A stretch of 58,154 nt of DNA from a virus. A program made the translations under genes and the position numbers. The stretch is taken from positions 1 through 58,154 of IMG/VR virus record IMGVR_UViG_3300046692_000249, one strand, 5' to 3'. Under the pieces are notes generated by a model. The model made no database searches and was not told the DNA's origin. It saw nothing but the letters and a program-made list of their open reading frames with translations. Below are positions 2,999-42,897 of this stretch, piece by piece. Position 1 is the stretch's first letter. Each line of letters opens with the position of its first letter.

Positions 2999-3817
2999 TT
3001 GAAGTTCTATCCCGAGGATTACATCGTCGAGGTGGTCGTAAAGTTCACCGATCTCAACGGAGCAGCCGTCACCCCGACGGCTGTTTCTGCCGTTCTCTAT
3101 GATGGCAACGATACCGAGGTCGTGGATTTCGGCTCGCTGCCCTTTGATGCGTCCGAGGGACAGAAGTCGATCTCCATTCCGAAGGAGTTCAACCGGCTCG
3201 CAGACGGCGAGAACCGCGCGGCCCGCATTCTGCGTGTGGGCATTGAGACGGAGCAGGGCACTATCCCGCGCTCCTTCTCCTATGCGATCGAGTCCGACCA
3301 GCGCCTGGTGCTCCTGACCAATACCTTCGTCACTCTGGAAGCTGCCGAGTTCATGGCGCTCGACACGCCGAACGTTACCGGCTGGAATGTTGCAAGCGAC
3401 GACCAGAAGCTCGCGGCGCTGACCGAAGCCTATCGCCGGCTGACCCGAATCCCGATGAGGTTCCCGACCTACGCGCCGGGGACGGGGTTCGATTCCTTCA
3501 ACACGATCGCTCCGCGCGAGCTCCTTGAGGAGACGGTCATCGAGCGCGACATGTGGGACGATATCACCGGCGAGCAGTTCAACGATTTTCCGATCGCCTT
3601 CAAGAAGGCCGTGCGCCGCGCTCAGTTTGTCGAGGCAAACGAGCTGCTGCAGGGTGACAACGTCGCCAAGAAGCATCGCCAGGGTATCGTGACTGAAACC
3701 ATCGGCGAAAGTTCCGTGACGCTGCGCGACGGCCGCATCGATTACGGTATCGGCTCCGAGACGCTGAAGGCGCTGACCGGCTATATCTATTTCAACATGA
3801 GGATCCGGCGCGCTTGA
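2999..3817 (+). CDS. putative head-tail connector/adaptor protein
   Basis: 272 aa starting at TTG 2999, with AGGAG at 2986-2990 overlapping the end of the previous gene. Residues 1-105 form a beta domain; residues about 110-260 are helical and end in IGESSVTL plus a repeat-like tail, a pattern typical of head-tail connector (gp6/DnaT-like) proteins. The following gene starts inside its stop (TTGA). Position ahead of a HK97 gp10-like gene supports a neck role. The assignment is inferred from pattern and order. Confidence 0.5.
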   Translation: MKFYPEDYIVEVVVKFTDLNGAAVTPTAVSAVLYDGNDTEVVDFGSLPFDASEGQKSISIPKEFNRLADGENRAARILRVGIETEQGTIPRSFSYAIESDQRLVLLTNTFVTLEAAEFMALDTPNVTGWNVASDDQKLAALTEAYRRLTRIPMRFPTYAPGTGFDSFNTIAPRELLEETVIERDMWDDITGEQFNDFPIAFKKAVRRAQFVEANELLQGDNVAKKHRQGIVTETIGESSVTLRDGRIDYGIGSETLKALTGYIYFNMRIRRA

Positions 3818-4563
3818 TCCCTCATCGGCTTACTGAGGCGGCTGACCAGGCCGCTCGTCGCTACGATCTCCTGTCGCAGACCTTTAGCGCGCTCTATCGC
3901 AGCGCGCTGCTGTCGGCTGACTTCGGCTCTGCCAATCAATCGCCGGCGCTCTTCAACGACGCCTACGAGAACGCTGGCCTGTATTTCGAACGCGACAAGG
4001 ACGAGCTCGCGATCCTTTCTCTCGAAATTGCTGAAAACGCTCACCAGAGCGCGCTAGCGAAAATCGCGAGCGTCGACTCATCTGGCCTGCCGGACGCAGC
4101 CCTCGCGCATGTGAGCGAGACCCAGACGTATCTTTCAAACGAGATAGCAGCTCAGGTGCATCGCGATGTCGCGCACATGCGATTTTCCCTGCAGCGAGCG
4201 GTTTTGGACGTGAGCATGATTGCTCGCACGCGCCGGCTCGATCATCGCCGGGCGCAGATGGCCTATGTCATGAAGAATACCGAGGAGCTCGAGCTTCAGT
4301 TTGTCGATCGCCGCGGGCGCCGCACGCCGACGCGCACTTTTGTCCGCTCCCTCTATCGCCAGTCGCTGCTGTCGATCCACAATGAGACCACGCTGCACGC
4401 GCTTGCCGATCACGGCATCGAGACGGCCGCGGTGATGAAGCTCGAGGATGGTGTCGAAAAGCAGATCGACCGCATTTCGATCCATGACTACGCCGAGCTG
4501 CGCGCCAGCCTCTTTCACCCGAACTCGAATTCCTTCCTCGACGTGGAGACCGACGATGTTTGA
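3814..4563 (+). CDS. hypothetical protein of the head-tail joining region
   Basis: 249 aa, start TTG 3814 overlapping the TGA of the preceding gene by 4 nt. Almost entirely alpha-helical by composition, with Arg/Glu-rich central helices and no cysteine, signal peptide or membrane segment. I do not recognise the family. The tight overlap on both sides (next ATG at 4556) places it in the neck/head-completion operon, so a minor head or connector role is possible. Confidence 0.6.
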   Translation: MIPHRLTEAADQAARRYDLLSQTFSALYRSALLSADFGSANQSPALFNDAYENAGLYFERDKDELAILSLEIAENAHQSALAKIASVDSSGLPDAALAHVSETQTYLSNEIAAQVHRDVAHMRFSLQRAVLDVSMIARTRRLDHRRAQMAYVMKNTEELELQFVDRRGRRTPTRTFVRSLYRQSLLSIHNETTLHALADHGIETAAVMKLEDGVEKQIDRISIHDYAELRASLFHPNSNSFLDVETDDV

Positions 4564-31774: not shown

Positions 31775-31976
31775 GAAGGCCGAACTAACAGATGAAGCAC
31801 GACGACTGATCGAAACTATCCTCATCGATTCCAGATCCGAGGACTTCTCGACCCGGCAGGAGGCGCGGTTTGCGATCATAAAGGTGCAGATCTTATATGG
31901 CCGTGAAGCGTTGGAGGTGGTCGAGGAAGAGCTGGCAACTCGATTTGGCGAAATGCAAGCCGGCGTCTGGGGCTAA
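31767..31976 (+). CDS. small hypothetical protein
   Basis: 69 aa, overlapping the previous gene by 8 nt. A single amphipathic helical protein, acidic and without cysteine. Its TAA overlaps the stop of the convergent repC gene (CTAA at 31973-31976). No family recognised. Confidence 0.55.
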   Translation: MREKAELTDEARRLIETILIDSRSEDFSTRQEARFAIIKVQILYGREALEVVEEELATRFGEMQAGVWG

Positions 31977-33079
31977 CGTTTGAGTAATCGTCGGACCTCC
32001 TGCGTGAGGTCAACCTGTCCGGACTTGATAAGCCGGACCAGCGCGCGGAAATAACCGCCCGCATTCTTGATCGGTTCGGCCCCTGGCGTGGGCCGCGCCT
32101 GCAGCTGGATCACGTAGACCAAGGTCGCAGCCGCCCCGAGCAGCCCGATTTCGCGGCCAGCTTCCTCCCAGGCCGACGGCGACACGCCAAACGCGCCCCG
32201 CATCCTGCCGACGCCTAATATAAACTCCCGATCATTTCGCACCTGCCCAATAAACTCCATTGCGTCCGGGCACGCCCTAACCAGGTCATCTACGGTCGCA
32301 ATCGGCCGCTCCGGCTCCCTCACATCTTCAGAGCCATTGTTACAAGACTGGTCAGGGGCATATTTGTTGTTGTCTTTGTGACGGCAAGAATTGCCGGCAG
32401 AGGCGGCGTAATATCTGCCTTCTGCCTCCATACGGAGCTGATGCCAGGCATCACGGGCGCTGTCGGCCGATCCCGTCGCCGATCGCCGCGGCGTGACTCG
32501 TGAAAGCTCCAGAGCGCGCGCCGTCAGATCGGTGATGTCAGAGTCCGGATAGACCTCGGCAAGCGTCCTGAGAGCTTCCTGGGCTGATCTGCGATGAATG
32601 GTCAGCTCGTCAAAGGCCAGCGCCCGCTCGCGCTCGCGCTCCTGGATCGCAGCCAGGCGCTCATTCAGCTCCGGCAGCTTCTCGAGGAGAGGGGAGAGGT
32701 CGAAGCCATAGGCTCGGATGATCTGGCCTTGCGCCGATCGCTGGGCGAACCGCTTGCCGTTGGCGCTGTCCTTGGCGACGATTAGACCTTCCTCAATGAG
32801 CCTCGCGAGCGAGTAGCGCACCGAACGCTCCGGAATGCCGGTTCTTTCCACAAGAAACTCGTTAGAAGGCCATACGAGGATCCTGTTTTCGATGAGTTCG
32901 CCGCGATAGCAGCCGACGAGTTGGTCCAATACGAAACGGGCGCTGCTTGGCAGCTGCAGCACCTTTGCCGCGATTCGAGCGGCGTCGAAGAGTTCTTGCT
33001 TGTCCGCGGAGTCCTGCTCTCGCGCCGATGGCAGTGTCGGCTTGAGAGCACGCCAACCGGACGGTTGTGCGCTGGTCAT
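31973..33079 (-). CDS. repC: RepC-like plasmid replication initiator
   Basis: 368 aa on the minus strand; ATG complement at 33077-33079, with GAGGGA upstream. It closely follows the RepC plan: an N-terminal winged-helix region (about residues 25-195) with LVWPSNEFLVERTGI and KDSANGKRFAQR, then a variable A+T-rich linker, then the C-terminal domain (about 260-368) with GVSPSAWEEA and NAGGYFRALVR, all matching motifs of repABC-family initiators. In plasmids, RepC binds an origin inside its own gene. No repA or repB neighbours are present. Homology is strong; its use by this phage is inferred. Confidence 0.88.
   Translation of the reverse strand: MTSAQPSGWRALKPTLPSAREQDSADKQELFDAARIAAKVLQLPSSARFVLDQLVGCYRGELIENRILVWPSNEFLVERTGIPERSVRYSLARLIEEGLIVAKDSANGKRFAQRSAQGQIIRAYGFDLSPLLEKLPELNERLAAIQERERERALAFDELTIHRRSAQEALRTLAEVYPDSDITDLTARALELSRVTPRRSATGSADSARDAWHQLRMEAEGRYYAASAGNSCRHKDNNKYAPDQSCNNGSEDVREPERPIATVDDLVRACPDAMEFIGQVRNDREFILGVGRMRGAFGVSPSAWEEAGREIGLLGAAATLVYVIQLQARPTPGAEPIKNAGGYFRALVRLIKSGQVDLTQEVRRLLKR
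32330..32400. other. A+T-rich segment inside repC (candidate oriV)
   Basis: Within repC, the stretch encoding the inter-domain linker is clearly richer in A+T than the flanking coding DNA. RepC origins in repABC plasmids lie in such an A+T-rich patch in the middle of repC. Only position and composition support this here. Confidence 0.4.
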
Positions 33080-33128
33080 GATCCCTCATTTCCGGGTCAA
33101 AGCTTCGCCGCCCGACTCGAAAAGTCGG

Positions 33129-33157
33129 TTGACAAATCAGCGGTGATTCGGGATAAC
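33129..33157 (+). promoter_or_regulatory. sigma70-like promoter for the antisense RNA
   Basis: TTGACA (33129-33134), 17-nt spacer, GATAAC (33152-33157). It points away from repC and into the 33.2 kb terminator, with no gene in between. Confidence 0.7.
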
Positions 33158-33163
33158 CAAGAT

Positions 33164-33264
33164 GCTAATGGCTTGGTTTACGGTGACCCGACGGTCTAAT
33201 TGATCCCGAACTCCTTGCTTCTATTAAAGGCTCTGGGCTGGCAGGCTCGGAGCCTTTTGCTTTT
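33164..33264 (+). ncRNA. putative countertranscribed RNA opposite the repC leader
   Basis: About 100 nt between a sigma70-like promoter and an intrinsic terminator, with no credible reading frame, transcribed divergently from and antisense to the repC 5' leader. In repABC plasmids, a small antisense RNA (ctRNA, IncA, RepE) in exactly this position limits RepC synthesis. Same layout here; I cannot compare sequence with known ctRNAs. Confidence 0.6.
33226..33262 (+). terminator. terminator of the antisense RNA
   Basis: AAAGGCTC (33226-33233) pairs with GAGCCTTT (33250-33257), followed by TGCTTTTT. It would also lie just downstream of the minus-strand RHH gene but has a better U tract on the plus strand. 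Confidence 0.7.
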
Positions 33265-33267
33265 TCC

Positions 33268-33462
33268 CTAGTTTCTATCCTCAATTAAGCGGTGAACGGC
33301 ATCCGTAACGGCTTCAGACCGATTACGGTAAGCGCCGGACTTGATCAGCCGGTCGAGTTGCTCGGTCAGACGACCTTCCATCCACAAAAGCACTTGCTTT
33401 TCGCCGTTGGATTCTTTCTTGACGCGATACTTCTTCGCTGGCGTGATGTCCTGGATGCCCAT
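33268..33462 (-). CDS. ribbon-helix-helix transcription regulator
   Basis: 64 aa, minus strand. Residues about 22-62 fit the CopG/Arc-type RHH fold: a beta strand (KQVLLWM), then two helices (LTEQLDRLI and NRSEAVTDAVHRLIE). The N-terminal 20 residues are basic and could touch DNA. RHH dimers bind short repeated sites. It lies upstream of repC on the same strand and downstream of a regulatory gap, so it may control repC or the phage-wide dyads. Confidence 0.7.
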   Translation of the reverse strand: MGIQDITPAKKYRVKKESNGEKQVLLWMEGRLTEQLDRLIKSGAYRNRSEAVTDAVHRLIEDRN

Positions 33463-33670
33463 GCTTTGCCCTTCGACTCATGCAAATCACTTCGCTAGTG
33501 ATCGCCCGATTCTCACGATTTGTGAACCCCCATTATCTTACTCATCCAATGGTAGATGTTAACGGACCATTAACCATTCAAAATTGCATAAGATGCCTTA
33601 TGGAACTTATGAGCTGGCCTGACGACCGAGACGGCGAGATAGTGAATCACAGCTGAGGAGTCCAGAAAAA

Positions 33671-33805: not shown

Positions 33806-34198
33806 ATGGCTAAGGAAAAAGGAACACCCACGAGGTTTTCCAACTACATATTTAAGAAGCTGATGGAGTCGACGAAGTCTCAGAAAGAGATCGCCGAGGA
33901 AGCCGGTTACTCCAATCCGAACATGATCACAATGCTGAAACTTGGTCATGTTAAGCTGGCGCTCGATCGTGTGCCGGCAATGGCGAAAGCCTTGAACGTC
34001 GATCCTCTCGACCTGTTCAAGATCGCTCTGACCCAATTTTATGACGAACAAGCCGTCAGATTTCTGACCGAGATCATCGAAGGCGGTATCTCGCCTTCCG
34101 AGAAGAAGATCCTCCAGATCGTTCGGGACGCCAGCGGAAACGACACACCGCAGCTCACACCGGAGCGGGCAAAGCAGCTCGCCGAGATCTTCAAGTAA
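33806..34198 (+). CDS. XRE-like helix-turn-helix regulator
   Basis: 130 aa from ATG 33806, with AGGGG 8 nt upstream. A helix-turn-helix near residues 20-65 (KSQKEIAEEAGYSNPNMITML, LDRVPAMAKALNVDP) followed by a helical C-terminal half suited to dimerisation. XRE proteins bind palindromes as dimers with half-sites about one helical turn apart, exactly the 11-bp centre-to-centre distance of the phage dyads. It is the best candidate for the phage repressor; binding is inferred. Confidence 0.7.
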   Translation: MAKEKGTPTRFSNYIFKKLMESTKSQKEIAEEAGYSNPNMITMLKLGHVKLALDRVPAMAKALNVDPLDLFKIALTQFYDEQAVRFLTEIIEGGISPSEKKILQIVRDASGNDTPQLTPERAKQLAEIFK

Positions 34199-34585: not shown

Positions 34586-36919
34586 ATGAACCGCGATATC
34601 ATGGAGCTGCGCGAGGTCGTCCAGAAACTCGTTCCTCTGCTCGCTGGCAAGGGGCTCGTTGTGACGCAGCGCGGCTCCCAGGCTTACGTGCGGACCAACA
34701 CCACGACGAAGCAGCCCGAAGAGGTCAACATCCCGAACATCCCGGACAATGCGTCCCAGGAGTTCGTCTGGGCGATCCAGGGTTTCATCGACCACGAAGT
34801 CGGCCACATCCTGCACACCGACTGGCTCTGGTATGGTGGCAAGGGTGGCGTATCGGAAGCCGACCTGCGCAGTCCGGCAAAGCGCGCCTTCATGAACACC
34901 CACAATATCGTGGAAGACGTGATGATCGAGCGGGAAATGGCGAAAACCTTTCCTGGCGCCCGGCGCAACATCTCCAACACCCGCAAGTGGTTCCTGGCGA
35001 AGATCACCGACGAGGCGCTCAAGGGCGTCAAGGATCCTCGCGAGCAGTTCAACTACCTGATCGTTCCGGCCATGCGCGCCCTCGGTGATCACGAGGAAAT
35101 GCAGGAGTGGATGGATAAGGGCAGCTGGTGGAAGAACAAGTATGTCGCCGAGCTCCTCAAGACGATGAAGCCGGCAACCCTCGACCTCCTCAAGACCTGC
35201 ACGACGACCAAGGAAACGCTGGTCATCGCCGAAGAGCTCCATGCGATCATCATGGGCAAGGTCGCACCCCCTGCCCCTCCGAAGCCGCCTGAAAAGAAAA
35301 AGGAAGACAAGAAGGACAAGGGCAAGTCGAAGGACAAGCCCGAGAAGGAGGCTGGCGAAGGCGAAGGTGACGGCGAGCGCGATCACAAGGAGCCGGAAAA
35401 GAAGGAAGAGGACAAGAAGCCCTCCGACGACGGCAAGGGGAAGAAGGACGATGAAGACGATAAGGGCGAAGGCGCCGGCGACGACGAAGACGCCGAAGCG
35501 GAAGCAGATGAGCCCGACGCTGGCGATGATGACGGCGATGAAGACGCTGAGCCCGAAGAAGACGCCGGCGACGACGAGGACGATCCTGCTGCCGATGAAG
35601 CTGATGGCGAAGACGCTGACGATGATGACGATGAGCCTGCGTCCGGCGCATCAGATGATGACGGTGAGGATGAGTCCGAGGCTTCCGGATCGGCTGCGGC
35701 CGACGAAGATGACGGTGAAGACGATGAACCGGCAGGTGCTGGTTCTGGTGGCGCCGGTGGAGCCGACGAGGACGGCGAAGGCTTTGAAGGATTCGACGAA
35801 GATGCACCGGGCGGCCCGCAGATCATTACGGCCGGCGCCGACGGTGGTGGAGTAGGCGACCCCGACGACGAGACTGAGGACGAAACTCAGGGCGGCGGAG
35901 GCGGTGTCGGCAACAGTATGTCCAAGTCCCTCTTCGACTTTGAGGACGGTGATTTCAACGAGGTCGACATGTCGGCGCAGATCGCCATCAAGATCTCCGA
36001 GGAAGCCGTCCTTGCGATGGATCCGAAGCAGTATCTCGTCTACACCCGCGACCTTGATCGCATCGAGCCTGTGGTGCCGCCCGAGGACATGAAGAAGACC
36101 TGGGTGCCGTCTCTCGAGGAAGACACCCGGCAGATGACCTCGAAGATGCGCAAGGATATCGAGCGTATGATGGCATCGCAGTCGCACGTCATCCGCACGC
36201 CTGGTCATCGAAACGGCAAGCTTCATGCGCCGTCGCTCTTCCGCGTGCCGCAGGGTGATCCTCGCGTCTTCACGCAGAAGCAGGAGCATGTGTCGAAGGA
36301 TACGGCTGTCGAACTGGTGATCGACAATTCCGGCTCGATGAGTGGCGCGAAGATGAAGCTTGCCATGACGGCCGGCTATGCGCTCTGCACCACGCTCGAT
36401 GCGGTCAAGATCGCCCACGAGGTCATCGGCTTTACGACCGGTGGCTGGCATCACCTGCCCCACACGATCCGGCAGGCGATCACCGACGATCTGCACAAGT
36501 CCTCAATCCAGTGGGACCGCGTTGGCCCGCTGGTGCTGCCGATCTACAAGACCTTCGAGGAACGCATCACCGCGACCGTCAAGGCGCGTTTTGCCTATAT
36601 GCGCGAGGCGCAGGCCGGCATCTCCGGCAACGTCGACGGCGAGTCCCTCGAATACTGCGCCGAACGTCTGCTCAAGCGCCCTGAAAAGCGCAAGGTGATG
36701 ATGGTTCTGTCTGACGGTCAGCCGGCCGGCTCCCACAAGGCAGGGCCGCATCTGTCCCATGTCGTCAAGCAGCTTAGCAAGATGGGAATCGAATGCATCG
36801 GCATCGGTATCCAGGATGACAGCGTGAAGCGCTACTATCCGAAGTTCACGGTCCTGCATAATGCCGCGGACCTCCCCGGCCAGGTGATGGGCGAAATCAA
36901 GCGCATCCTGTTGTCCTGA
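34586..36919 (+). CDS. CobT-like vWA protein with HEVGH motif
   Basis: 777 aa. Residues 60-130 hold a metalloprotease-like HEVGH (His70, His74) followed by NTHNIVEDVMIE, the N-terminal layout of vWA-like metallopeptidases. Residues about 228-445 are an extreme Asp/Glu/Lys low-complexity region. The C-terminal vWA domain has a complete MIDAS: Asp580-x-Ser582-x-Ser584, and later Asp in SDGQPAG. This architecture matches cobaltochelatase CobT and its phage relatives; the AAA+ partner (CobS/MoxR-like) is next. As no cobalamin genes are near, a role in remodelling a phage or host complex is more likely. Confidence 0.75.
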   Translation: MNRDIMELREVVQKLVPLLAGKGLVVTQRGSQAYVRTNTTTKQPEEVNIPNIPDNASQEFVWAIQGFIDHEVGHILHTDWLWYGGKGGVSEADLRSPAKRAFMNTHNIVEDVMIEREMAKTFPGARRNISNTRKWFLAKITDEALKGVKDPREQFNYLIVPAMRALGDHEEMQEWMDKGSWWKNKYVAELLKTMKPATLDLLKTCTTTKETLVIAEELHAIIMGKVAPPAPPKPPEKKKEDKKDKGKSKDKPEKEAGEGEGDGERDHKEPEKKEEDKKPSDDGKGKKDDEDDKGEGAGDDEDAEAEADEPDAGDDDGDEDAEPEEDAGDDEDDPAADEADGEDADDDDDEPASGASDDDGEDESEASGSAAADEDDGEDDEPAGAGSGGAGGADEDGEGFEGFDEDAPGGPQIITAGADGGGVGDPDDETEDETQGGGGGVGNSMSKSLFDFEDGDFNEVDMSAQIAIKISEEAVLAMDPKQYLVYTRDLDRIEPVVPPEDMKKTWVPSLEEDTRQMTSKMRKDIERMMASQSHVIRTPGHRNGKLHAPSLFRVPQGDPRVFTQKQEHVSKDTAVELVIDNSGSMSGAKMKLAMTAGYALCTTLDAVKIAHEVIGFTTGGWHHLPHTIRQAITDDLHKSSIQWDRVGPLVLPIYKTFEERITATVKARFAYMREAQAGISGNVDGESLEYCAERLLKRPEKRKVMMVLSDGQPAGSHKAGPHLSHVVKQLSKMGIECIGIGIQDDSVKRYYPKFTVLHNAADLPGQVMGEIKRILLS

Positions 36920-37027: not shown

Positions 37028-38323
37028 ATGAGCCAGTTAGCAAACGCTGGTGCAGCTGCCACTGCACCGGACGATAAAATTCTGTGCCAGATCGACAACG
37101 TGCGCGTCCACTCGATCCAGAGCCACATCAAGAAGAACCATCCCGATTGGACGGTCGAACGCTACCAGGCCGAGTTCCCTGGTGAGCCGCTCTTCTCTCA
37201 GACCGCGCTTGATGTCATCGAGCGCCAGAAGAAGGAAAAGGAGCTCGCTGCAGCCGCTGCGCCCCAGGCCAACATGGCTATCTCTGCAGGTCTCGGGCCT
37301 TCCAAGATGAGCTTCAAGAACGCCATGTTCCATGAGCTGTTCGAACTCGGCAACGCGGCCGCTGCCATGTCGTCGAAGGGTGCGCCGATCCCGGTCAAGG
37401 TGCTTGAAGGTCTCGACGCTCAGTCGCTCGACTACCTGCCCGAGCTCGACAAGAGCTACGTCTTCAATATCGACCTGCTCAAGAAGGTCATCATCGGCAT
37501 GGAACTGAACATGCCGACCTACCTCTGGGGCTTCCACGGCACCGGCAAGACCACGATCCTGCAGCAGGCAGCCGCCCGCACGCGCCGGCCGTTCATCCGC
37601 GTCCAGCACACGATCAACATGCAGGAGTCGGACGTTCTCGGTCAGTGGACCGTTCGCTCCAAGGAAGTCGAAGTCGAGGAGCTCGACAACGACGGCAAGA
37701 AGGTCGTGGTCAAGAAGCAGCAGTCCGTGACCGAATACCAGCTCGGTCCCTTGCCGCTCGCCATGATCAACGGCTGGGTCTACTGCGCTGACGAATACGA
37801 CTTCGCCATGCCGTCGGTCACTGCCGTCTATCAGCCGGTTCTCGAAGGCCAGTCGCTGCTGATCAAGGACGCTCCTCCGCACTTCCGCAAGATCGCCCCG
37901 CATCCGAACTTCCGCTTTGTCGCGACCGGCAACACCAACGGCGTCGGCGACGAAACTGGCCTCTATCAAGGCACGCTCGTTCAGAACGCCGCAAACTATT
38001 CCCGCTTCGCGATCACCGAAGAGGTCGAATATATGGAAGCGAAGATCGAGACCGCGATCCTGCAGTCCAAGACCGGCATCGACAGCGCATCGGCTGGTAA
38101 GATCGTCAAGATGGCGAACGAAGTCCGCAAGATGTTCCGCGACGGCAAGATCACCATGACGGTCTCGCCGCGCGAGCTGATCCGCTGCGCCTCGCTCGGC
38201 ATTGCTTACGGTGGCAACTGGTCGCTCGGCATGGAGCTCGCCTTCGCCAACCGTCTGTCGCGCGTCGATAAGAAGGTTGTCCAGGAATACATGCAGCGCG
38301 TCTTCGGTGGAGTCGCTGCATAA
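37028..38323 (+). CDS. CobS/MoxR-like AAA+ ATPase
   Basis: 431 aa, with GAGGG 10 nt upstream. Residues 1-80 resemble the small N-terminal domain of CobS; the AAA+ core has Walker A GFHGTGKT (Lys174, Thr175), Walker B YCADEYDFA, sensor FVATGNTNG and a C-terminal helical lid. MoxR/CobS ATPases work with vWA partners such as the protein just upstream to insert or remove cofactors or remodel complexes. Pairing is conserved by gene order; the target is unknown. Confidence 0.82.
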   Translation: MSQLANAGAAATAPDDKILCQIDNVRVHSIQSHIKKNHPDWTVERYQAEFPGEPLFSQTALDVIERQKKEKELAAAAAPQANMAISAGLGPSKMSFKNAMFHELFELGNAAAAMSSKGAPIPVKVLEGLDAQSLDYLPELDKSYVFNIDLLKKVIIGMELNMPTYLWGFHGTGKTTILQQAAARTRRPFIRVQHTINMQESDVLGQWTVRSKEVEVEELDNDGKKVVVKKQQSVTEYQLGPLPLAMINGWVYCADEYDFAMPSVTAVYQPVLEGQSLLIKDAPPHFRKIAPHPNFRFVATGNTNGVGDETGLYQGTLVQNAANYSRFAITEEVEYMEAKIETAILQSKTGIDSASAGKIVKMANEVRKMFRDGKITMTVSPRELIRCASLGIAYGGNWSLGMELAFANRLSRVDKKVVQEYMQRVFGGVAA

Positions 38324-39528: not shown

Positions 39529-42500
39529 ATGCATTCGGTTCTCGCAGCGCGGACTGACTTCTCAGTCGGCGAAAGCATCCTCACGACCAAGCGTCTGATC
39601 AAGAACGCCGTCGATGTCGGTGCAAAGGCCGTCGCCATGACCGACACTATGTCGATCACCGGCATGATCGATTTCACCAATAAGGCGAAGGCTGAAAAGC
39701 TGAAGCCGATTATCGGTGTTCGCCTGCGCCTGGTCGACAATCCGACCTGGCGTCCGGGCAAGGACGAAAAGAAGAAAGATATGCCGCGCGCATACTTCCT
39801 GACGCTCTATGCGCTCAAGGAAGCCGGCATGAAGGGTATCTTCCGGCTGCTGACGCTCGCCAATTCCGATGACCGCTTCTACTACGAGTCCAAGCTCGGC
39901 TTCGAGGATCTCTATGCGGAGTTGAGAGGTCTCTCAGCGAACGATGTGGCGATTGTTCTTGGTGATGCCCACTCAGTTCTGGAGCATCCGAGCGCCAACG
40001 ATATCGTGGATAAGCTGAATACGCTTGTCGCTCACCTTTATGCGCCGCTGATTCCGATCGACACGCCCTACTACGGCCGCCTGAACAATCTGGCACTATC
40101 ACAGGTTGTCGATAACGCGGTTCGCCCGATCGTCGTGCGTCCGGCATTCTACGGTCAGGGCGAAGCCGACACTCAGGAAATCATGACGGCGATCTCCGAG
40201 AACCATAAGGTGACGGATGGCTGGTTCAGGTCGCGGCACAATCGCGACATGCACGTCATGGGCGCGCCCGAGCTCGTCGGCGAAATGAAGAAGGCCGTCG
40301 CCCATCTGGTCAAGCGCGGGAATGATCCGACGTTCGTCGCGGCTCAGTTCAAGAGGGGCCTTATCGCTACGGCTGAGCTGGTCGACGCCGTCGAATACGA
40401 ATGGAAGAAGGCCGAGGTCTCGCTGCCGGTCATGGCACCGAATGAATTCGCCGCAGTCGTGGAAGAGTGTAAGAAGGGCTGGAAGACGCGCTTCGACAAG
40501 CCGATCTTCGGGCATCAGCCCGACGCGAAGGAGCTGGTCGAGGTCTACAAGCCCCGCCTCGCCTATGAGCTTGAGACGCTGAAGCGGTTGAACTTCTCGG
40601 GCTACTTCCTGCTCGTGCAGGACGTGGTCCAGTTCGCCAAGAGCAGCGGCATCATGGTTGGCCCTGGTCGTGGTTCCGTGGGCGGATCCCTCGTCGCGTA
40701 TCTGATGGGCATTACCGAGTGCGATCCGATCCGCTTCGGCCTGCTCTTCGAACGCTTCATCAACCCTGAGCGTATCGACTTGCCCGACGCTGACCTCGAC
40801 TTCATGTCCGAGCGCCGGCACGAGGTCTTCGAATATCTGACCAAGAAGTATGGCGAGGCGCGCGTCGCTGGCGTCAACAACTATGGCACGCTCGGCTCTG
40901 CGTCTGCGATCCGCGATGTCGGCCGCGTCACCAATATTCCTGAAAAGGACTATTCCGTTTCGAAGTATGTGCCGAAGCTGCACGGCCAGAACGTGCCGCT
41001 GCCGGAAGGCCGTAAGCAGGTCGCGGAAATCGATGCCTTCGCGCTGAACTATCCGACCCACTGGGGTATTATGGAGCGCCTCGAAGGCACCATCCGCAAC
41101 TTCAGCCAGCACGCAGGCGGCGTCATCGTCGGCGGGGTCGATATTGTCGATCGCGCCGTTATTGAGCGGCGCAAGGACGGCAACGTCGTCTGTTGGGACA
41201 AGCGCATCGTTGAAGACCAGGGCCTCGTCAAGATGGACGTTCTCGGACTCAACACGCTCGATCTTATGACGCTGGCGCTCGACTATATCCGCGAGAACTC
41301 GGGCAAGCGCCTCGATTTGAACCGCATTCCCCTCAATGACGAGAAGGTGCTGGCGAACTTCGCCAAGGCTCACACGACCGCCATCTTCCAGTTCGAGTCA
41401 GGCGGTATGCGCCGGCTGCTGAAGGAGCTCGGCCGCGACGGCTCGATCACCTTCGACGATATCACCGCGGCGACCGCGCTCTACCGTCCTGGTCCGATGG
41501 AATCGGGCATGATGGACTCGTTTTACAAGCGCAAGCAGGGCGACGAGGACATCGAATACGATCATCCGCTGATGGAGCCGGTGCTCGAGGAAACCTTCGG
41601 CGTCATCGTCTACCAGGAGCAGGTCATGAAGATCTCCCAGGTGATCGCCGGCTACTCGGGCGCGGCTGCTGACAAGCTCCGCAAGATCATGGGCAAGAAG
41701 CTGCCGGAGGAGATGAAGAAGGAGCGGAAGAAGTTCTGCGACGGCTGCGTCGCCACGATCAGCTGCACCGAGGAATGGGCAGGCGCGCTGTTCGACAAGA
41801 TCGAAGGCTTCGCCGGCTACGGCTTCAACAAGTCGCACTCGGTCGAATACACGCTGATCTCCTACCAGGCGATGTATCTGAAGACCTACCACGCTGCCGA
41901 GTTCTATGCGGCCGCGCTGACGGTGCAGAAGGAAGAAAAGCTCACCGGTATCATCCGTGACGCAAGGATGCTCGGTATCGAGGTCTCGATGCCCGATATC
42001 AACATCTCGACCGACCGCTTTGAAATGGCGACTTCGGTGCGCCTGGTCATGCCGCTGCAGAGGATCAAGGGGCTGTCAGAGAAGGCGACCAACGCCGTCC
42101 TCGAGGCCCGCAAGGCAGGTGGACCCTTTAAGGACAAGAACGACTTCCTGTCCCGCGTGGAGAAGCGCGTCTGCAACAAGCGCGTCCAGGAGGCGCTGGA
42201 GCTCGTCGGTGCGTTTGCGCGCATCGAGCCTGGCTCTGTCCCGGCCAATGACCCGAGCCGCATCAAGGACCAGATCGAGCTGTTGCCGGGCCTCATCGCC
42301 AGCCACGTCCCTATCGACCACGAGCTGAACAGGGACAACGACACGAAGATCGCGCTTGGCGAAGTCGTGGACGACTACCGTCGTGCGCACGGCCCGACCT
42401 CGGGCTCTGTCGACGGTTATCCGGTCAAGCCGTTCTTCGGTAGGAGCGCCGATTTCATGATCATCGCGGACGCGCCTGGCAACGAGGAAGACACGGGCGG

Positions 42501-42897
42501 TATCATGGGCTTCTCGATGTCGAATAACGCGGTCGTGGAAGCGATCGAAGCGGCAAGCCTCGATAGGTCGAACGCCTACTGGACCGCGCTCATCAAGCGC
42601 CCGAAGCGCGGCAAGCAGGTAGGTCCGGACGAGATCGCCATGTATTGGCCCTACCTCGAGCGGGAAATCGACCTGCTCAAGCCGCCCGTCATCGTGCTGC
42701 TCGGCTCGCAGACCGTTCGCCACTTCATCCCGGACTTCAAGGGTAAGGCATCCGACGCGGCCGGCAAGGTGATCTATTCGAAGAAGTATGACGCCAACAT
42801 CGTGATCGGCTTCTCGCCCGGCGAAATCTACCACGACCCGGACAAGCAGCAGAACATGAACGAGGTGTTCGGCGCCGTTGCGGATTGCCTCGCATGA
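39529..42897 (+). CDS. dnaE: DNA polymerase III alpha fused to a UDG-like domain
   Basis: 1122 aa (GAGGATAA upstream). A C-family polymerase: N-terminal PHP domain, palm with LPDADLDF (Asp420, Asp422, Asp424), fingers, and an HhH segment near 870-900. The PHP domain lacks the usual metal ligands: the HxH pair and the His of TDH are replaced (LAARTDFS, TDTMSITG). From about residue 940 the OB fold and C terminus of bacterial DnaE are replaced by a uracil-DNA-glycosylase-superfamily domain (IADAPGNEED, NAYWTALIKRP, VLLGSQTVRHF), but the family-4 cluster cysteines and HPS motif are absent. So a phage replicase, probably not proofreading through PHP, with a UDG-like module of uncertain activity. 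Confidence 0.85.
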   Translation: MHSVLAARTDFSVGESILTTKRLIKNAVDVGAKAVAMTDTMSITGMIDFTNKAKAEKLKPIIGVRLRLVDNPTWRPGKDEKKKDMPRAYFLTLYALKEAGMKGIFRLLTLANSDDRFYYESKLGFEDLYAELRGLSANDVAIVLGDAHSVLEHPSANDIVDKLNTLVAHLYAPLIPIDTPYYGRLNNLALSQVVDNAVRPIVVRPAFYGQGEADTQEIMTAISENHKVTDGWFRSRHNRDMHVMGAPELVGEMKKAVAHLVKRGNDPTFVAAQFKRGLIATAELVDAVEYEWKKAEVSLPVMAPNEFAAVVEECKKGWKTRFDKPIFGHQPDAKELVEVYKPRLAYELETLKRLNFSGYFLLVQDVVQFAKSSGIMVGPGRGSVGGSLVAYLMGITECDPIRFGLLFERFINPERIDLPDADLDFMSERRHEVFEYLTKKYGEARVAGVNNYGTLGSASAIRDVGRVTNIPEKDYSVSKYVPKLHGQNVPLPEGRKQVAEIDAFALNYPTHWGIMERLEGTIRNFSQHAGGVIVGGVDIVDRAVIERRKDGNVVCWDKRIVEDQGLVKMDVLGLNTLDLMTLALDYIRENSGKRLDLNRIPLNDEKVLANFAKAHTTAIFQFESGGMRRLLKELGRDGSITFDDITAATALYRPGPMESGMMDSFYKRKQGDEDIEYDHPLMEPVLEETFGVIVYQEQVMKISQVIAGYSGAAADKLRKIMGKKLPEEMKKERKKFCDGCVATISCTEEWAGALFDKIEGFAGYGFNKSHSVEYTLISYQAMYLKTYHAAEFYAAALTVQKEEKLTGIIRDARMLGIEVSMPDINISTDRFEMATSVRLVMPLQRIKGLSEKATNAVLEARKAGGPFKDKNDFLSRVEKRVCNKRVQEALELVGAFARIEPGSVPANDPSRIKDQIELLPGLIASHVPIDHELNRDNDTKIALGEVVDDYRRAHGPTSGSVDGYPVKPFFGRSADFMIIADAPGNEEDTGGIMGFSMSNNAVVEAIEAASLDRSNAYWTALIKRPKRGKQVGPDEIAMYWPYLEREIDLLKPPVIVLLGSQTVRHFIPDFKGKASDAAGKVIYSKKYDANIVIGFSPGEIYHDPDKQQNMNEVFGAVADCLA

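Follow-up and report, generated by a model that had tools for sequence, protein, structure and literature searches.

The replication locus of this Rhizobium virus raises the question of whether the stretch between its RHH gene and repC holds a gene for an antisense RNA that limits RepC and, if so, which known control system that gene resembles. The window, meaning the complete 58,154-base virus record analyzed here, carries repC, the plasmid-type gene of the replication initiator, on its minus strand (31973..33079; 368 aa; Pfam RP-C at E 2e-39 and RP-C_C, with tblastn matches to phage and plasmid RepC). Upstream of repC lies the RHH gene (33268..33462, minus strand), recognized with an RHH family profile and encoding a candidate CopG-like repressor, and an XRE-type regulator gene (33806..34198) is divergent from the RHH-repC pair. 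The repC region is 92-97% identical to those of the Rhizobium phages B1VFA and V1VFA-S and 89% identical to that of RHph_X66. These three phages measure 115-122 kb and have been described as possible phage-plasmids (PMC12509600), as have pLM21S1 and RHEph10 (PMC4447125); all five share both their phage group and the RHH-repC arrangement with the window. For phage-plasmids of this group, one paper names repC, parA and parB (PMC12509600) and two others speak of a replication system of the RepC-like kind (PMC4447125, PMC5537653); these three accounts make no mention of an antisense RNA.

Beyond the replication unit, a CobT/VWA-like gene (34586..36919, plus strand) and a CobS/MoxR-like AAA gene (37028..38323, plus strand) adjoin it as a pair, which is likewise the case in several relatives of the group. 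A DNA polymerase III alpha-like protein is encoded at 39529..42897 (plus strand) and has a C-terminal uracil-DNA glycosylase superfamily domain (aa 972-1104).

On the plus strand, the sequence TTGACA-N17-GATAAC that an earlier note had pointed out is present at 33129..33157 as an exact match, the only one in the window. It consists of TTGACA at 33129-33134, a 17-nt spacer (AATCAGCGGTGATTCGG) and GATAAC at 33152-33157. The hairpin-U terminator described there was also recovered, as an intrinsic terminator at 33226..33266 (plus strand) with a 14-bp hairpin (stem 33226-33257) and the T-rich tail TTGCTTTTT. With the start taken from the promoter spacing and the end from the terminator, the predicted antisense RNA is about 98-100 nt long (33165..33264, plus strand); the site lies wholly between the RHH gene and repC and is oriented opposite to repC. 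Plus-strand open reading frames overlapping it reach only 92, 48 and 23 aa, of which the two longer ones are shadows of repC and the shortest lies in a region that is not conserved, in line with the earlier view that these roughly 100 nt lack a credible reading frame. In the window sequence taken alone, promoter and terminator are not beyond chance. More specifically, the promoter, with GATAAC as a weak −10, failed the −10 rule of our promoter scan, and a single-sequence terminator scan found 8 terminator-like sites in the region against 7.5 expected. The case for an antisense RNA gene rests on comparison.

RepC relatives were gathered from phages, plasmids, viral contigs and bacterial genomes, giving 48 phage-type leaders (37 non-redundant), which are relatives and not independent samples, and in some of which the repC start codon was assigned from the open frame. 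An antisense TTGACa-like hexamer with an acceptable −10 was present in all 48, almost always at a spacing of 17 nt. The −35 precedes the repC start by 47-58 nt in 47 of them, the exception (L156) having an uncertain start codon. Among the non-redundant leaders, 36 of 37 have the promoter at this distance from repC, an outcome that dinucleotide shuffles give in 0.57% of cases and genomic slots in 0.52%. When the viral collection was searched for the 29-bp promoter word, with the 4 bp at its core left free, 11 contigs matched, all of them already-known repC loci. A pattern search of viral contigs with TGTCAA...GGCGAAGCTTTGYC returned five repC loci and one further contig, L161, whose match was rejected as unrelated sequence.

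Several of the relatives have features of their own. RepC relatives in Microvirga (loci L048-L069, which are mostly Microvirga plasmids and contigs) also have a TTGAC box in antisense orientation, which precedes repC by about 41-56 nt, and no RHH gene. In pRlX6 (3001-4147), repC is split into two annotated CDS. Plasmid pRL9b2 has one intact and one broken RHH-repC-type copy besides its repABC genes, and the leader of the broken copy is well kept, scoring 70.6 bits with a phage-type leader model.

Conservation differs between the parts of the locus. In 66 pairwise comparisons among 12 close relatives, the 29-bp promoter with its spacer averages 93% identity, the terminator 69%, RepC 68%, the 5′ portion of the RNA 50% and fourfold-degenerate repC sites 49%. 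The 5′ part diverges with indels, and between the window and RHph_X66 it is 45% identical even though RepC is 96% identical, as would be expected of a specificity-determining non-coding RNA. The terminator stem shows two-sided compensatory changes at 12 of 13 pairs (32 relatives), and its T-tract lies on the antisense side (6.4 vs 4.4 T per 10 nt; Wilcoxon p 5e-6). The scan detects the terminator in 37 of the 48 leaders, while in the other 11 a GC-rich hairpin is followed by a poorer T-tract. The predicted RNA length varies among relatives from 62 to 128 nt, in steps that are not multiples of three. A short plus-strand protein, for which the 23-aa frame at 33200..33271 would be the candidate, is next to impossible in view of these length changes and the unconserved sequence, and a short coding gene was rejected on both counts.

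A conserved promoter, a covarying terminator and a drifting 5′ part together form the pattern of a non-coding antisense RNA with a drifting recognition part. Since the position and conservation of the promoter are far above chance and the terminator covaries, this comparison indicates that an antisense RNA of about 98-100 nt is almost certainly encoded opposite the repC leader, as the earlier note had proposed. The marked conservation of the promoter relative to the 5′ part of the RNA could also be accounted for by transcriptional interference, in which the promoter would act on the RHH-repC mRNA and its RNA product would be idle. We regard this as quite improbable: the covarying terminator would end transcription within about 100 nt, and in the repC family of pRmeGR4a, where the start site has been mapped, it is the antisense RNA that represses repC and determines incompatibility, according to Izquierdo et al. 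(2005) as cited in PMC10194956.

Conservation within the promoter extends to its 17-bp spacer, which is kept as strongly as the hexamers. It contains the palindrome AATCA-GCGG-TGATT (33135..33148), a possible operator conserved in the closest group, and a GANTC site of the CcrM methylation type (33145..33149) lies inside the promoter. The block might therefore be a DNA element, such as an operator, a CcrM site or part of an origin, that merely resembles a promoter. This is extremely improbable, and a bare DNA element was rejected, since TTGACA-N17 and the downstream terminator persist in distant relatives in which the spacer, the palindrome and the place of GANTC differ. GANTC occurs in the promoter or early RNA of 33 of 37 leaders (0.27 expected per 120 nt). 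A second conserved block, GAATCGGGC-GATCACTAGCGA (33490..33512), lies upstream of the RHH gene and is probably an operon control site; it also has GANTC, and its GAATCG is found at the same aligned place in 21 of 21 loci. Counts of this kind are inflated by the relatedness of the phages. In the repABC locus of Agrobacterium chromosome 2, CcrM and GcrA act probably via the RepE promoter (PMC11514494). The spacer palindrome is similar to this second block, strongly so in RHph_X66 and one further locus (L016) and marginally elsewhere. A shared-operator weight matrix gave marginal values as well, with region p between 0.004 and 0.04 for most members of the close group and none in distant loci. A dual control, in which a single RHH protein recognizes one palindrome present both in its own operon promoter and in the antisense promoter, and CcrM/GcrA sites in both promoters tie phage-plasmid replication to the host cell cycle, is a tentative idea that we consider rather unlikely. 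The GANTC sites in the promoters make the cell-cycle link directly testable.

Other conserved elements are found near the unit. The block GTTCCATAA-N6-CTTATGC, at about 33580-33610 upstream of the RHH gene, is conserved in most phage loci. Palindromes of the form TAAGTAA-GNNC-TTACTTA give 41 strand-wise matches in the window against 0.09 expected. They amount to about 18 sites, which include 44, 6217, 6267, 7946, 12970, 22203, 24141, 25881, 28362, 33671, 34273, 34548, 36971, 44148, 49449, 53972, 55081 and 58111; three of the palindromes flank the XRE gene. These dispersed sites look like the operator set of an immunity repressor. The window-wide scan placed none of them on the unit formed by the RHH gene, repC and the antisense RNA gene, so this unit may be free to work in a lysogen.

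How the RNA would act on repC can be approached from the leader of the repC mRNA (minus strand). Hairpin HP1 (CCGACU/AGUCGG; 33112..33128) lies between the promoter and the Shine-Dalgarno sequence, with two-sided changes at 5 of 6 pairs and 79.7% paired cells against 63.7% after shuffling. It is followed at 33080..33109 by the conserved GGCGAAGCUUUG element and the Shine-Dalgarno region (GAGGG), which is held in a second hairpin, HP2, that is weaker than HP1 and falls below 0.05 individually in 10 of 36 leaders. In a folding model in which the antisense target was masked at its proper length, instead of a fixed 75 nt, the mean accessibility of the Shine-Dalgarno sequence decreased from 0.42 to 0.33 over 36 leaders, with a drop of more than 0.1 in 11 and a rise of that size in none. 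The window leader gave a mixed outcome: the GGG of the Shine-Dalgarno sequence becomes paired and neighboring bases open. This modeled switch, small on average, is weak evidence, because p42d, for which a switch has been published, stays unchanged in the identical calculation. A mRNA-sense intrinsic terminator was found by the scan in none of the 36 leaders, a scan that also misses the published p42d terminator, and no U-tract follows HP1. Based on the modeled drop in accessibility and the lack of a sense-strand terminator in the 36 leaders, translational inhibition is favored over premature termination or attenuation.

Attenuation would be expected if the locus were a member of the repABC ctRNA family, in which RNA binding makes the repC leader form the S-element terminator. 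The place and orientation claimed by the earlier note do agree with the ctRNA/RepE genes of p42d and pTiR10: the −35 lies about 47-58 nt upstream of repC in the phages and mostly 51-61 nt upstream in repABC loci. The layout of promoter plus terminator and the GANTC sites near the promoter are also common to both, the latter lying in the antisense promoter as in Agrobacterium RepE (PMC11514494). However, the Rfam covariance models that recognize repABC controls do not recognize the window. RF00489 (ctRNA_p42d; gathering cut-off 50 bits) had no match in the window even at E 10 (0.9 kb), nor in eight related leaders, whereas p42d, pRL9b2 and the repABC locus of pRmeGR4a score 67.5, 58.1 and 57.3 bits. 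RF00490 (S-element; 47 bits) was not matched in the window or in eight related phage leaders, while it finds p42d (84.2 bits) and pRL9b2; the Rfam search of the window, at gathering and at E 10, returned only chance matches. The predicted RNA is about 98 nt long instead of 55-59 nt, and no sense terminator is visible in the 36 leaders to the scan that also misses that of p42d. We therefore consider membership with attenuation unlikely and retain an antisense RNA that inhibits translation as the preferred reading.

The idea that the phage took over the whole repABC copy-control module, as the earlier note had worded it on condition that the RNA is real, is not supported in that form. A ctRNA in the broad repABC sense lies between repB and repC, whereas the gene upstream of repC in the window is the RHH gene, and neither repA nor repB is in the operon. 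Furthermore, the RepC proteins of phages and phage-plasmids group with relatives from Microvirga and Methylocystis in a single clade that excludes repABC (100/100), which by this tree is a separate deep clade and not a recent capture. A closer counterpart of the leader is found in the repC family, in which repC stands outside a repAB operon as it does here. When 23 phage-type leaders were combined into a covariance model (R1), it matched the second leader of pRmeGR4a, which belongs to the repC family, as a homologous repC leader with an antisense RNA gene, at 25.4 bits (E 1.4e-4), while repABC leaders reach about 7-10 bits. That leader has TTGACA-N17-GAGAAA and a terminator at the same place, and shares the leader motif GAACGGCGAAGCTTTGCC and, with the leader region of the window, GGCGAAGCTTTGCC. 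In contrast to the window, no RHH gene lies upstream of the pRmeGR4a repC, and its RepC is distant (30% identity over part) and falls with repABC on a very long branch.

Because the upstream partner is an RHH gene and not repA/repB, the layout resembles copG-rnaII-repB of pMV158 (PMC4485353), where an RHH gene is likewise followed by an antisense RNA opposite the intergenic leader and an initiator gene. RNAII, like the predicted RNA, has a 5′ tail, one terminator hairpin and a U tail. The initiators are unrelated (a rolling-circle RepB there, RepC here), as are the hosts, and the window RNA is twice as long. CopG is an RHH repressor, and several observations bear on the candidate repressor of the window. 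In most phage loci, 154-203 nt lie between the end of the RHH gene and repC downstream of it, and its family profile matches NikR RHH structures (E 1.6e-5). Pfam RHH_1 was matched in 7 of 16 relatives, the window protein being below the cut-off. A search of viral contigs with the RHH protein alone confirmed nothing, and a single-sequence AlphaFold model (mean pLDDT 69) was not used.

From these comparisons we infer the following mode of action. The promoter at 33129-33157, of a constitutive type, would be transcribed from the strand opposite the RHH-repC mRNA into an RNA with a variable 5′ part followed by the terminator hairpin. This RNA would pair with the whole leader, from the RHH stop codon to the ribosome-binding region of repC, and lower RepC synthesis, chiefly because the Shine-Dalgarno sequence would be hidden and less through premature termination. 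Lowered RepC would keep initiation of the plasmid form at a low copy number and make like replicons incompatible. The promoter of the RHH-repC operon is most probably repressed by the RHH protein itself, which would give two-layer control as with CopG and RNAII in pMV158. We hold this explanation as a whole, an antisense RNA that limits RepC and copy number with an RHH repressor as a further layer, to be likely, with considerable confidence.

As judged from the sequences compared, the antisense RNA gene is real, with its function deduced; all relatives examined have it in the corresponding position, mostly together with a small gene that resembles a repressor gene. An antisense RNA of the RepC world is here joined to an RHH gene, in a layout known from small Gram-positive plasmids. 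Very probably, this RNA restrains the replication of the virus during its life as a plasmid in the cell. It represents a candidate for the control of copy number and incompatibility in the phage-plasmid group of RHEph10 and pLM21S1, the first in the literature on the group that we examined, and would predict which of these phage-plasmids can share one cell.
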